Source of the DNA: Mariniblastus fucicola | GTDB lineage: Bacteria; Planctomycetota; Planctomycetia; Pirellulales; Pirellulaceae | Direction: 5' to 3' | DNA: 64,000 bases | Assembly: GCF_008087665.1 (NCBI RefSeq) | Contig: NZ_CP042912.1 | Span: 744,001 to 808,000, forward strand | Shown here: positions 53,615 through 57,229 of the stretch, piece by piece | How positions within the stretch are numbered: the first letter of the stretch is position 1 | Layout of the letters: every line of letters begins with the position of its first letter | The notes under the pieces: generated by a model | Told to the model about the DNA's origin: nothing | Databases searched by the model: none | Seen by the model: the letters and a program-made list of their open reading frames with translations, nothing else | Position numbers and translations under genes: made by a program

Positions 53615-53634
53615 GAGGCTGAGGCCTTGGGAAA

Positions 53635-53662
53635 TACCCGGTACCCGGTACCCGGTACCCGG
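53635..53662 (+). repeat. four tandem copies of a 7-base repeat (TACCCGG)
   Basis: Exact head-to-tail TACCCGG units at 53635, 53642, 53649 and 53656. The unit is nearly palindromic, so it overlaps GGTACC sites. It sits in the gap between the DUF2237 gene and the split-Rad50 operon, 30 bases before a second heptamer array. Confidence 0.95.
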
Positions 53663-53690
53663 CAGCAAATACGCAGTCCTCAGTCCTGAC

Positions 53691-53721
<31 letters not shown>

Positions 53722-53866
53722 AAACCTTGCCAAAACCTGCTTTTCCCCGATAATTTCAACCAATCTCCGCCGCTGGACCAAACGTGTCCATTCCTCGGCG
53801 AAAGATAGAAGGATCGACAGCCCGTAACGTCGCGGGCTTCATTGAAACGCTTCACCAGGCCTTCCA

Positions 53867-55207
53867 GTGATCAAACGGATTGAACTTGTCAACTTCATGT
53901 CGCACCGGCATACCGTCATCGAACCGGCGGCCGGTCTGACGGTTCTTGTTGGCCCCAACAACTGCGGCAAATCCGCGATCGTCACCGCCCTGCAGATCCT
54001 CTGCCACAACGACAACTCCACCTACGTCTTGCGGCACGGCGCCAAAGAATGCCGCATCATTGTCGAAACCGATGACGGGCATCGCATCGAATGGATTCGC
54101 AAAAAAAGCGGATCGCCCAGCTATAAAATCAACTGCAAAGATTTCGATCGGCTCAACAAGAAAGAAAGCGACGTCTGGGACGAGCTGAAGAAAACGCTTC
54201 GTCTACCGCGTGTCGAGTTCGACAACAATAAATTCGACGTTCACATCGGTGAGCAACGAAATCCCGTGTTCCTGCTGGGCGATAAAGGCAAGGGTGCCGC
54301 CCAGTTTTTCGCTTCGTCCTCGGACGCGATTCGTCTGGTCGAAATGCAGGACTTGCACAAACGGCAAACGGCCGAAAACAAACGTGAACGAAAACGCCTG
54401 GCCACGCAACAAACCCAAGTCACCGAGGCGATCGAGTGTCTCGAATCGGTCCCGGAAGTCGACGCCGCGATTGGCAAGATCGAAGAACAATACGCAGTGC
54501 TCAAAACCGAAGAAGCCAAAACCGCTCGGCTGGATCAGGCTCTTGCGGACCTGACGCTTCGCCAGAAAGAAACCAAACGCTTCGCGGCGATCAATTCCGC
54601 ATTGCAAGCTCTGCCCCAACCGCCGCAGTTCAGCAATCCTGCTTCGCTGCAGAAACTGATTGAGCAAATCGGCATCGAACGTGCTTCGGTCAAAAAAAGT
54701 CAGGCACTACAGTCTGCGCTTCAATCGCTCACCAAACCGCCGACCTTTGGCAATCCGGCCTCTCTGCAAAAACTGATTGAACAACTCCGATCCGAGCAAA
54801 ATTCGATTCGCAAAAGTTCTTCGTTGAAGGCCACGTTCAATTCGCTGACCAAGCCTCCTGCTTTCTCCGATTCTGAATCGCTAAGGACGAAGCTTCGATC
54901 GATTCGCAAGCTGCGCAGAACCGTCGCCAAACTTTCGGCCGAGCAACAGTTGCTTTCCAAAGTCCAAGAACCTCCCGAATCCAAAGATTCCGAAACTGTT
55001 TCAGCACTTGCGAAATGCATCGTCGATCTTCGCACGGAAATCGAGTCCTGCAATGAAGTTCGCGCGAAACTGAAACAGGCTCAACAGCAACTCGGCCAGG
55101 CAAAGGCGGAAATCGAACAGTGGGTTTACGAAAACCCTGGCTGCCCGACTTGCGGAAGCGAAATCAGCGCCGACGTGATCCTCAGCGGAGGCCATCAGCA
55201 TGGCTAA
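53867..55207 (+). CDS. Rad50/SbcC-like N-terminal half with terminal zinc hook
   Basis: The 446-residue protein looks like the first half of a Rad50/SbcC ATPase. The N-terminus MIKRIELVNFMSHRHTVIEP and Walker A VGPNNCGKSA (residues 29-36) are of SMC/Rad50 type. About 130 residues of ATPase lobe I follow. A helical arm then includes four repeats of exactly 39 residues (249-404), each opened by a Pro-Pro break. It ends with the zinc-hook-like GCPTCGSEI (Cys426, Cys429) only 17 residues from the C-terminus. In ordinary Rad50 the hook lies mid-chain and a returning arm plus lobe II follow. Here lobe II is in the separate gene at 56576-57229. The GTG start lies after an AGG. It overlaps the Mre11-like gene by 8 bases. 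It is presumably a DNA-end processing or tethering factor. Confidence 0.85.
   Translation: MIKRIELVNFMSHRHTVIEPAAGLTVLVGPNNCGKSAIVTALQILCHNDNSTYVLRHGAKECRIIVETDDGHRIEWIRKKSGSPSYKINCKDFDRLNKKESDVWDELKKTLRLPRVEFDNNKFDVHIGEQRNPVFLLGDKGKGAAQFFASSSDAIRLVEMQDLHKRQTAENKRERKRLATQQTQVTEAIECLESVPEVDAAIGKIEEQYAVLKTEEAKTARLDQALADLTLRQKETKRFAAINSALQALPQPPQFSNPASLQKLIEQIGIERASVKKSQALQSALQSLTKPPTFGNPASLQKLIEQLRSEQNSIRKSSSLKATFNSLTKPPAFSDSESLRTKLRSIRKLRRTVAKLSAEQQLLSKVQEPPESKDSETVSALAKCIVDLRTEIESCNEVRAKLKQAQQQLGQAKAEIEQWVYENPGCPTCGSEISADVILSGGHQHG
54611..55078 (+). repeat. four in-frame 117-base repeats encoding the 39-residue arm units
   Basis: Units begin at 54611, 54728, 54845 and 54962. Their protein openings are LPQPPQF, LTKPPTF, LTKPPAF and VQEPPES. 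Units 1 and 2 share NPASLQKLIEQ, while units 3 and 4 are more diverged. The exact 117-base period points to duplication within the gene. Confidence 0.88.
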
Positions 55208-56168
55208 GTCCGTTCGAAACTACCGCGGTTTGCTGGTCATCGGCGATCCGCACATCGAAGGCCGCAACCCGGGGTTCCGCAAAGGCAACTATCCCGAAGC
55301 GATCCTTGGCAAAGTCCGTTGGTGTCTTGAACATGCGCGAAAGCACAAATTGCTGCCGGCGTTTCTGGGCGACGTGTTCGACAAACCTCGCGACAATCCG
55401 ACTTGGGTGATCGGCGAGCTAATCGAAATGCTGATGCCCTATCCGGCAATCGGAATTTACGGAAATCATGACTGTGCGGATCCGCAACTGAGCGAAAACG
55501 ATTCGCTTTCGATCCTGATCAAAGCCGGCTGTTATCAATTGGTCGGCGAGCAGGATTTTTGGACGGGAATGGTCGAAGGCCGCCGCGTCGTCGTTGCCGG
55601 TTCGTCGTATCGCCAGCGGATTCCGCAGTGCTTCGACACGGACAACGTGCCGCGCGATTCACTTTTCGACGCCAAGCCAACGGTCGTTTGGCTGACGCAT
55701 CACGATATCGACATCGGCAATTATGAAAACGGAAAATTCGGTCCGTTCGAGATGATGAACGTCGACTTGTTGATCAACGGGCACATTCACCGACCCGCCA
55801 AACCCGTCCGTCGCGGCGACACAACGTGGATGAGCCCGGGCAACATTTCCCGCCGTTCCCGTTCGGCACACAGCCGCGCTCACGTGCCAACGGTCACGGA
55901 AGTCACGTTTCCGGAATCGGGTTTCGAAGTCAAATCAGTCGTCGTGCCGCACGAACGATTCGAAGACGTGTTCTTTCTGGACGACGTTGACGAATCGAAA
56001 ACGAGCGAGCCGCTTTCAAGTTTCGTTTCGGGGCTGAGTGAACTTACGAAACGCCGCACCTCTTCGGGAGCCGGTTTGATTCAGTTTTTGGACCAGAACC
56101 TGGACGAGTATAGCGATAGCGTCGCCGCAGAAATTCGCTCGCTTGCCAAACAGGTCGTAGAGAAATAA
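55200..56168 (+). CDS. Mre11/SbcD-like metallophosphoesterase
   Basis: A 322-residue protein with the five phosphoesterase motifs in order: GDPHIEG, LGDVFDKP, YGNHDCADP, WLTHHDI and NGHIHRPA. Two metal ions bind these His and Asp residues and cut DNA phosphodiester bonds. The last ~100 residues form a helical tail (LSSFVSGLSELTKRR, ending IRSLAKQVVEK) that may bind the Rad50-like coils. The overlap with the Rad50-N gene makes an Mre11-Rad50 complex the clear expectation. Strict SbcD proteins are longer (about 400), so this is a compact form. The metal ligands are complete, so nuclease activity is expected. Confidence 0.88.
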   Translation: MAKSVRNYRGLLVIGDPHIEGRNPGFRKGNYPEAILGKVRWCLEHARKHKLLPAFLGDVFDKPRDNPTWVIGELIEMLMPYPAIGIYGNHDCADPQLSENDSLSILIKAGCYQLVGEQDFWTGMVEGRRVVVAGSSYRQRIPQCFDTDNVPRDSLFDAKPTVVWLTHHDIDIGNYENGKFGPFEMMNVDLLINGHIHRPAKPVRRGDTTWMSPGNISRRSRSAHSRAHVPTVTEVTFPESGFEVKSVVVPHERFEDVFFLDDVDESKTSEPLSSFVSGLSELTKRRTSSGAGLIQFLDQNLDEYSDSVAAEIRSLAKQVVEK

Positions 56169-56180
56169 CGGGAGTTGAAA

Positions 56181-56471
56181 ATGAGCAACGAAACTATTGA
56201 TCAATTGCAAAAGCGTTTTGCGCGACTGGACAAGCAGCAGACCGTCGTCCAGACGCAGCTTGACGAGGCGCAAAAGCGTCTCGCTGAGTTGCAGGATCAG
56301 GCGAAAGCCGAGTTTGGCACTGATGATGTGGATGCGCTGCAGGAGAAGCTCGAGGCGATGAAGCAGGAGAACGAACAGAAACGTTCTGCGTATCAAAAGG
56401 GCCTCGATGAAGTCGAAGCGAAGTTGAAAGAAGTCGAATCTCAATTTGCAGAAACGGAAGTTGAGGATTAG
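56181..56471 (+). CDS. small coiled-coil protein of the split-Rad50 operon
   Basis: A 96-residue, almost entirely helical and charged protein (ETIDQLQKRFARLDKQQTVV, ALQEKLEAMKQENEQKRSAY, LDEVEAKLKEVESQFAETEV). It lies between the Mre11-like and Rad50-C-like genes on the same strand. GGGAG before the ATG at 56181 supports this start over the TTG six bases earlier. It may supply helix for the returning arm that the split ATPase lacks (inference). No homologue was recognised. Confidence 0.78.
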   Translation: MSNETIDQLQKRFARLDKQQTVVQTQLDEAQKRLAELQDQAKAEFGTDDVDALQEKLEAMKQENEQKRSAYQKGLDEVEAKLKEVESQFAETEVED

Positions 56472-56484
56472 TCCGCTGCATTCG

Positions 56485-56546
56485 GGTGGCATCGGATTCC
56501 AGCCTGTGTTTTGCCGTCCGATCACAGGCTGGAAGCCGATGCCACC
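56485..56546. repeat. large REP-like palindrome inside the split-Rad50 operon
   Basis: Arms of 24 bases (56485-56508 and 56523-56546) match at 23 positions around a 14-base loop. Their core is GGTGGCATCGGATTCCAGCC and its complement. It lies between the coiled-coil gene and the Rad50-C gene, in a transcript that would have to read through it. The family core also occurs at 30377-30445 and 45879-45950. Confidence 0.9.
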
Positions 56547-56575
56547 GCTGCTACGACACCTAAAACCCAAGCCGC

Positions 56576-57229
56576 ATGATTCAATCTCCCGAAAAACTTC
56601 GCGACCGCGTCAAGCGCCTGTCCTGGGAGCGTACGAAGCTCACCGACAAAGCGAAACGTGTCGCTGCGCGAATCGGTGAACTTGACGAACATCTTGAAAT
56701 CGCGGCGGAGGTTTCCGAAGCCCTGGAACATCTCGGCAAAGAGCTGTTCGAAGAAGTTCTTGGCCTGATGGAAGAAAAGCTTTCCAAGGCCGTCGAAGAA
56801 GTCCTCGACCAACCGATCAAATTCAAGTCTCACGCGGCTTTCAAAAGCGGTGCCGCGTCAGTGAATTTCTCCGTTGAACGTGACGGCAACAAGGAAGACG
56901 TGCACCGCGGCCAAGGCGGATCGGTGCAGAATATTCTGAGCGTCGGATTGCGAATGTTTGCTTTGGCGAATCTTGATCCCGACGAACATCGCCGATTTCT
57001 GGTGCTTGACGAGCAGGATTGTTGGCTGCGTCCAGAGCTCGTCCCACGACTGGTGAACATCGTGCATCAGGCGGCCAGAGAGCTGGAGTTTCAGGTAGTC
57101 ATGATTTCCCATCATGACATCGGCCTGTTTGAAAGATACGCCGACAAGGTCTATCGGCTCAGCCCGAATCGCGATGGTTTGGAGATCGCCGAAGTCAACG
57201 CTCAGCCAGAAGAGAGCGACGAAGAGTAA
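56576..57229 (+). CDS. Rad50/SbcC-like C-terminal ATPase half
   Basis: A 217-residue protein. The first ~80 residues are a charged coiled coil (RDRVKRLSWERTKLTDKAKR, LEHLGKELFEEVLGLMEEKL). ABC-ATPase lobe II follows: a signature-like loop GQGGSVQNILSVGLRM (112-127), Walker B RFLVLDEQDCWLRPE (Asp145, Glu146) and the H-loop VVMISHHDIGLFE (His179/180). Walker A is absent, as expected if it is supplied by the protein at 53867-55207. The signature loop differs from the usual LSGGE. It could also act as a dedicated partner in an SMC-like ring. The short length of the arm compared with the N-half is the main puzzle. Confidence 0.82.
   Translation: MIQSPEKLRDRVKRLSWERTKLTDKAKRVAARIGELDEHLEIAAEVSEALEHLGKELFEEVLGLMEEKLSKAVEEVLDQPIKFKSHAAFKSGAASVNFSVERDGNKEDVHRGQGGSVQNILSVGLRMFALANLDPDEHRRFLVLDEQDCWLRPELVPRLVNIVHQAARELEFQVVMISHHDIGLFERYADKVYRLSPNRDGLEIAEVNAQPEESDEE

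Follow-up and report, generated by a model that had tools for sequence, protein, structure and literature searches.

Four adjoining genes of Mariniblastus fucicola (Planctomycetota, Pirellulaceae) probably encode a DNA-end-processing complex of the Mre11-Rad50 (SbcCD) type whose Rad50 is built from two chains. The genes, called g1 to g4 here, lie on the forward strand of the window, a stretch of 64,000 nucleotides (contig NZ_CP042912.1, positions 744,001 to 808,000), and their coordinates are collected in Table 1. The initial annotation, made from the letters of the window, had proposed that a Rad50-like head is split over two genes, that the first half ends in a zinc hook without a returning arm, and that an Mre11-like nuclease is encoded between the halves. 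All of this is borne out by our data. Chance or an assembly error as the origin of the four-gene set is excluded, because the set is conserved across many genomes. A frameshifted or degraded sbcC was also considered and is ruled out: the separate open reading frames (ORFs) recur, and g4 is 43-62% identical in 61 relatives.

Rad50, SbcC and SMC proteins are hairpins, in which the chain runs out along one strand, turns round at the tip, where a hook or a hinge sits, and returns along the other strand, so that the two lobes meet at the head. The product of g1 looks like the outgoing half of such a hairpin. Its best-scoring stretches match the N-terminal ends of the AAA_23, AAA_15, SMC_N and Rad50 models, with a PF13476 match at E 6.6e-11, and its Walker A residues G29, N31, N32, G34, K35 and S36 and the Q-loop residue Q130 are invariant in 44 g1 proteins. 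A profile of these 44 proteins finds the solved zinc-hook structures of Rad50 (6zff_A at 7.3e-06, 1l8d_A at 1.2e-04), while the window protein alone matches 6zff_A weakly (0.045). The hook match covers the last ~60 residues, and both the match and the protein stop just past the CxxC motif. A terminal CxxC is present in 59 of 61 g1 proteins from the window and the genome_contigs loci, some of which are cut at the start by contig ends. Fifty of them were taken as complete; 48 could be measured and continue for 15-42 residues past the hook, and the other two have no hook.

The short tail behind the hook is rich in histidine. At least one His follows the hook in 54 of 59 bacterial g1 proteins (26.7 expected from the protein bodies) and in 21 of 26 viral ones (3.4 expected; the viral counts include duplicate rows and represent 21 distinct arms). 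Since four bacterial and three viral proteins have neither His nor Cys in the tail, an intramolecular zinc site completed by the tail is only a possibility. The two hookless relatives (L085, 4395-6665, and L066, 429-1889) end in a similar, unrelated domain, and that of L085 has an apparent transmembrane stretch.

The second gene, g2, passes PF00149, the calcineurin-like phosphoesterase family, and keeps the Mre11 motif residues (D-H/GD/NHD/H/GHxH). Searched against solved structures at E 0.01, its profile finds only Mre11/SbcD. The match of this profile to the g2 protein of Tunturiibacter phage Tunturi_5 is a self-match, because that protein was included in the profile; an independent blastp comparison gives E 5e-12. 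In a midpoint-rooted g2 tree the bacterial sequences form a clade apart from most phage sequences, with phyla intermixed. One row of this tree is misframed and junk (L126), one locus was omitted (L124) and one viral contig sits on a long branch among the bacterial rows (L115); the tree was not used for the direction of transfer. A viral contig (L170, 7381-9708) contains a 775-residue ORF that matches the g2 profile, and its Mre11-like domain is perhaps part of a fusion.

The last gene, g4, supplies what g1 lacks. It has the signature GQGGS, where LSGGE is canonical, a Walker B LVLDE and an H-loop SHH. Fourteen relatives that were collected without motif selection retain G(Q)GGS, LDEQD and SHH. 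The motifs are also kept in a set of 62 g4 proteins, which is biased, as its loci were fetched by the patterns LDEQDCW and FQV[LI]MISH. An AlphaFold2 model of g4 (pLDDT 89.4) consists of a 73-residue helix (residues 5-77) followed by a lobe, and in Foldseek its best matches are the C-half chains of Pyrococcus furiosus Rad50, with SMC heads next. The first crystals of P. furiosus Rad50 were reportedly of two halves produced apart from each other, and the Foldseek matches, which include 1f2t_A and 1f2t_B as distinct chains, are consistent with this. Between g2 and g4 stands g3, a conserved 96-residue coil and, judging by its sequence, perhaps a helical hairpin.

Could g1 and g4 instead belong to two distinct ATPases whose genes happen to lie in one operon? 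Sequence libraries barely recognise g4, and then as an ABC transporter or SMC protein and not as Rad50. The two proteins are, however, complementary halves of one type of head, they occur in the same 15 of 149 genomes of the host family, and nature has fused them. In one viral contig (L179, 5266-7221) the C-half occupies residues 4-189 of a single 651-residue protein, the matches to the N-half and arm fall between 229 and 636, and CPLC is at 630; PHROG places the C-half family at 7-189 and the N-half families from 228 on, and Pfam places AAA_23 at 228-434. A second fusion (L185) has the C-half at 24-212, the N-half from ~247 and CQTC at 596 of 607 residues, with the frame taken from the stop before it (the ATG gives 604 residues); a metallophosphoesterase gene lies upstream. 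The order in both is permuted: C-lobe, N-lobe, arm and, last, the hook. Because of these fusions the g1 and g4 halves very probably make one head, and two unrelated ATPases are hardly credible. The fusions are also strong evidence that the hook is followed by no return strand, as even the single chain ends there.

The whole set travels together. A g4 profile scan of genome_contigs gave 127 relatives, of which 80 were kept; the scan required the peptide LDEQDCW or FQV[LI]MISH, and thus selects those motifs and misses divergent relatives. All four genes stand on one strand in 61 of the 81 loci formed by these 80 and the window, so that the gene order is shared by relatives, a point that the initial annotation had suggested surveying. 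Of the other 20 loci, 15 have g4 alone in the fetched stretch (two at contig ends), and in five the contig ends within the locus, leaving out g1 or both g1 and g2. Most relatives are from Planctomycetota; others are labelled Desulfobacterales and other Deltaproteobacteria, a proteobacterium, Chlamydiota, Sumerlaeia, Poribacteria, Bacillota/Clostridiales and Spirochaetes. They derive mostly from metagenome-assembled genomes (MAGs), where misbinning of contigs is possible. Restriction of the set to the host genus is ruled out by the 127 relatives over several phyla.

Among 149 genomes of the host family, g4 was found in 16, g1 in 16, g3 in 15 and g2 in 15 (thresholds E 1e-3, 1e-10, 1e-6 and 1e-40, respectively), and the same 15 genomes hold all four genes. 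The surplus g4 match is weak (G051) and the surplus g1 match is a 31-residue fragment (G064). The hypergeometric P for co-occurrence of g1 and g4 is 1.7e-18, with kinship ignored; the alignments were partly built from the same genomes, so that the positives are not independent. The genes need not be linked: three genomes (G132, G136, G146) have g4 and g1-g2-g3 on different contigs, and g1-g2 lie apart from g3-g4 in a fourth (G141). In a fifth (G095) g1 lies apart, but with g2 at a contig end this could reflect a break in the assembly. For many genomes the scoring covered just some of the first-look candidates (at most 10 for g1 and 14 for g2), and absence of the set from the remaining family genomes is likely rather than certain. 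In a sample of the phylum, g4 was found in 17 of 392 genomes (at most seven candidates scored in the listed genomes), and 14 of the 17 belong to one family. In three Pirellulaceae MAGs (L036, L038, L040) a lone g4 lies beside the same gene, which reads by eye as accD-like; g4 may have parted from g1-g3 long ago, with the arrangement inherited since.

Phages carry the same parts. An N-half with a CxxC at the end of the chain occurs in Tunturiibacter phage Tunturi_5, Bacillus phage vB_BboS-125, LR745208.1 and the viral contig L115. These four and Microbacterium phage Magritte all have a C-half and a small coil gene. The coil gene was assigned by size and position in Tunturi_5, LR745208.1 and L115, as the g3 profile finds that of Magritte (2.5e-07) and vB_BboS-125 (1.8e-04) only; identity to g3 is 15-20%. 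An Mre11-like gene is present in three of the five, the other two having been looked at only in parts. Searching viral_contigs with the g1 profile yielded 29 loci. In 26 of them the protein ends in CxxC, one is the fusion L179, and two (L180, L183) were dropped as unrelated, complete single-chain ATPases, presumably OLD-like. The gene order in five viral contigs (L181, L177, L169, L163, L153) is RecA, g1, g2, PD-(D/E)XK nuclease, g3, clamp and g4, with extra genes in some; g2 spans two ORFs in L169, and an overlapping ORF is listed in the place of g3 in L177. Pfam confirms RecA and PDDEXK in L181, L169 and L153. A Pfam scan of three of the clamp-like proteins gave no match, PHROG 947 confirms the clamp of L181, and the remaining assignments were read by eye. 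A RecA gene also lies upstream in L115. In Magritte, gp247 (L003, 1006-2244) is annotated as "ASCE ATPase" and reads by eye like a sliding clamp; a protein at the matching place of L181 matches PHROG 947.

The arm of g1 appears to be modular in bacteria. Its autocorrelation peaks at lags 39 and 78, and the distance from the motif FFASSSD to the hook, measurable in 46 of the 50 g1 proteins taken as complete, is exactly 36 + 39n residues in 29, one less in four and off by more in 13; these sequences are related and the counts not independent. There are 10, 8, 5, 5 and 1 arms of 231, 270, 309, 348 and 387 residues, within a measured range of 227-507. Odd and even repeat numbers both occur, which disfavours a zigzag of repeats running up and down. 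In the model of g1, helices span residues 154-247, 258-286, 297-324, 337-365 and 375-422, just ahead of the hook at 426-429.

These lengths bear on what stands opposite the g1 arm. An ordinary antiparallel coiled coil could be assembled from several chains, with g3 and the N-terminal helix of g4 as the descending strand, and the initial annotation had raised the idea that the small protein completes an arm. It would fit this that g3 is a conserved coil and shares its 15 genomes with g1 and g4, and also that the g4 model starts with a 73-residue helix. However, the g1 arms differ mostly by multiples of 39 residues, while g3 (mostly 96-112 residues) and the part of g4 that precedes its lobe (mostly 45-60), each measured from the first start codon, are near constant, and several copies of g3 per arm would be needed for full coverage. 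Moreover, g4 precedes g1 in the permuted fusions, where its helix cannot continue from the hook within the chain. A full hairpin arm made of several chains is therefore unlikely, and g3 may complete an arm next to the head at most, not over its full length. A partner whose length changes more than two-fold cannot be lined by g3 and g4, which are near constant; we infer that past the section close to the head the arm is a single chain, and that two such arms pair with each other. Put as a whole, our proposal is that this Rad50 is no hairpin: the head would sit on a single-chain arm of addable 39-residue modules, which ends in a chain-end zinc site with extra ligands from the His tail, and the two arms would be zipped together and not each to a return strand of its own. 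This proposal is tentative and we rate its chances at somewhat below even.

A number of results weigh against these readings and should be set beside the evidence above. The profile search of both halves against Rad50, which the initial annotation had suggested, gave matches of g1 to Rad50 and SMC models and left g4 unplaced. Even g1 scores only 54.7 bits against the NCBIfam Rad50 equivalog, far from the cut-off of 1000. The sequence of g4 is nearer to ABC-transporter ATPases and SMC proteins than to Rad50: it matches SMC_N at E=0.12, its best NCBIfam matches are ABC-transporter ATPases (4.8e-04; Rad50 0.018), and its profile finds a cohesin SMC chain as the best solved structure (0.0054), with no Rad50 among the best 60 structure matches. 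The head of the g1 model matches N-halves of Smc6, SMC and Rad50 in Foldseek, with Smc6 ranked first, and SMC heads are matched by both folds. The label Rad50 is based on three things: the zinc hook, the Mre11 partner and the ranking of the fold matches of g4. TIGR00619 (sbcD) is missing among the NCBIfam matches of g2 at E 1, and no Mre11- or g2-like gene lies in the stretch around the L179 fusion. The hook itself is not indispensable everywhere, as two of the 61 g1 proteins lack it and Magritte has both halves with no CxxC in the N-half. As to the arm, the 39-residue step was not found in the phage arms as a group, and the pTM of the g1 model, 0.34, is too low to tell which way the arm helices run.

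If the two-chain reading is right, the complex might work as follows. Homology, co-occurrence and the permuted fusions support the view that g1, with Walker A and Q-loop, and g4, with signature, Walker B and H-loop, form each ABC head. As in the families to which the parts belong, two heads would close on two ATP, and a g2 dimer at the base would cut DNA ends. Close to the head, the g1 arm would be braced by the extended helix at the N-terminus of g4 and probably also by g3. Farther out the arm would consist of g1 alone, lengthened by 39-residue helical units up to the CxxC. Zinc would join the ends of arm chains, within one complex or between two, perhaps helped by the His-rich tail. An Mre11-type nuclease with a Rad50-type gate points to ATP-controlled processing of DNA ends, and the phage neighbours RecA, PD-(D/E)XK nuclease and clamp to a role in recombination. 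The host genome contains a separate, intact Rad50-like/SbcD-like pair (L148), as the initial annotation had proposed to look for, although the SbcD-like match is below the family cut-off. The four-gene set would thus be an accessory, most likely for resection or end clearing that feeds recombination.

The initial annotation had also considered an anti-invader nuclease. Such a defence system would cut phage or plasmid DNA and be akin to other SMC- or Rad50-related ones. SMC-like defence systems do exist (PMC10586767). The patchy spread of the set (15/149 family and 17/392 phylum genomes), its presence in several phyla and their mixing in the g2 tree could be read in this way, and g1 and g4 match the ATPase parts of defence systems (AriA at 8.7e-14, mad3 at 9.1e-07). 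But these PADLOC matches span unrelated systems that share the ATPase fold (AriA, LmuB, GajA, mad3; for g1, the best 25 of 86 matches). In PADLOC g2 has no match and g3 matches only coils at E 0.001 or worse, and no described defence system was matched over most of its parts (again for g1 the best 25 of 86 matches). The neighbours of eight loci, read by eye, are varied and do not read as defence genes, and none of these loci looks like a defence island. The unlinked genes of G132, G136, G141 and G146 are unlike a defence cassette, the concentration of 14 of the 17 phylum-sample matches in one family suggests vertical retention there, and in phages the related sets stand close to genes for RecA, a nuclease and a clamp. 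A defence role is therefore improbable, and this suggestion of the initial annotation is not directly supported.

The set resembles Rad50-Mre11 and SbcC-SbcD of archaea, bacteria and phage T4 (gp46-gp47) in its two-lobed ABC head, its CxxC hook and the adjoining gene for an Mre11-family nuclease. Present are the N-lobe with Walker A and Q-loop, the C-lobe motifs, the CxxC at the tip of the arm and a nuclease with intact motifs. It differs in that the lobes are on two chains (on one, in permuted order, only in L179 and L185), that the hook stands at the chain end instead of mid-chain with an antiparallel return, and in the extra 96-residue coil protein and the arm of 39-residue repeats. The L148 pair of the same genome, which we take to be of the YhaN/YhaO type, likewise combines a Rad50-like ATPase with an adjoining SbcD-like nuclease; unlike here, its ATPase is a single chain of 1181 residues. 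Two phage protein families are close to the halves: PHROG 16465 ("exonuclease") matches residues 2-138 of the g1 head (E 6e-18) and PHROG 15167 ("ATPase") residues 7-181 of g4 (E 1.5e-08). The vB_BboS-125 proteins gp32, which ends in CPLC, and gp35 match these families near end to end. They are catalogued as separate proteins, and we found no description of them as the halves of a single Rad50.

Rearranged Mre11-Rad50 genes as such are known from viruses. In the Mimivirus R555 type, as described in passages of PMC3175470, Mre11 is fused to Rad50, whereas here Rad50 itself is divided or permuted; the same passages report one P-loop segment of SbcC as unobserved in Bacillus phage 0305phi8-36. 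In jumbo phages SbcC and SbcD are practically universal, and the passages of PMC7824862 that say so hold no split Rad50. Passages of PMC6969161 describe Rad50 as a hairpin with the hook at its tip, and the hook as a dimerisation module that is exchangeable with an SMC hinge. Within open literature searched by title and abstract start, a scope that lies outside subscription papers and bioRxiv, no description of a split or permuted Rad50 was found. If true, a lineage whose chain stops at the hook, together with permuted fusions that stop there too, would separate the function of the hook from that of paired arms, so that the arm properties needed for end tethering and nuclease gating become testable. 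Functions would also be assigned to the two phage families now called "exonuclease" and "ATPase". A zipped single-chain arm, if it exists, would make division or permutation of Rad50 cost-free and so explain the split, scattered or reverse-fused phage forms.

Table 1. Features of the four-gene locus, in positions of the window.
Feature	Position	Strand	Description
g1	53867..55207	+	446 aa; N-half of putative split Rad50: N-lobe, helical arm, terminal zinc hook
g2	55200..56168	+	322 aa; Mre11/SbcD-like metallophosphoesterase; start overlaps g1 end
g3	56181..56471	+	coiled-coil protein, 96 aa from ATG; 98 aa from upstream TTG
g4	56576..57229	+	217 aa; C-half of putative split Rad50: one long N-terminal helix, then C-lobe
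Walker A of g1, GPNNCGKS	53951..53974	+	residues 29-36; G29, N31, N32, G34, K35 and S36 invariant in 44 g1
39-residue arm repeats of g1	54638..54961	+	~residues 258-365; model helices 258-286, 297-324, 337-365
Zinc hook CPTC of g1	55142..55153	+	residues 426-429; 17 residues before C-terminus; GHQH in tail
ABC (ATP-binding cassette) signature loop of g4, GQGGS	56909..56923	+	residues 112-116
Walker B of g4, FLVLDE	56996..57013	+	residues 141-146
H-loop of g4, SHH	57107..57115	+	residues 178-180
REP-like hairpin	56485..56546		between g3 and g4; genome-wide repeat, outside the conserved system

The hairpin in the gap between g3 and g4 is near-perfect and resembles a repetitive extragenic palindrome (REP), with a z-score of -7.2; its arm has 86 copies in the genome at <=1 mismatch and none in the reversed control. 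Upstream of g1, at ~53634-53722, two short tandem repeats of GGTACCC units and of CCGAAAA units were seen by eye.

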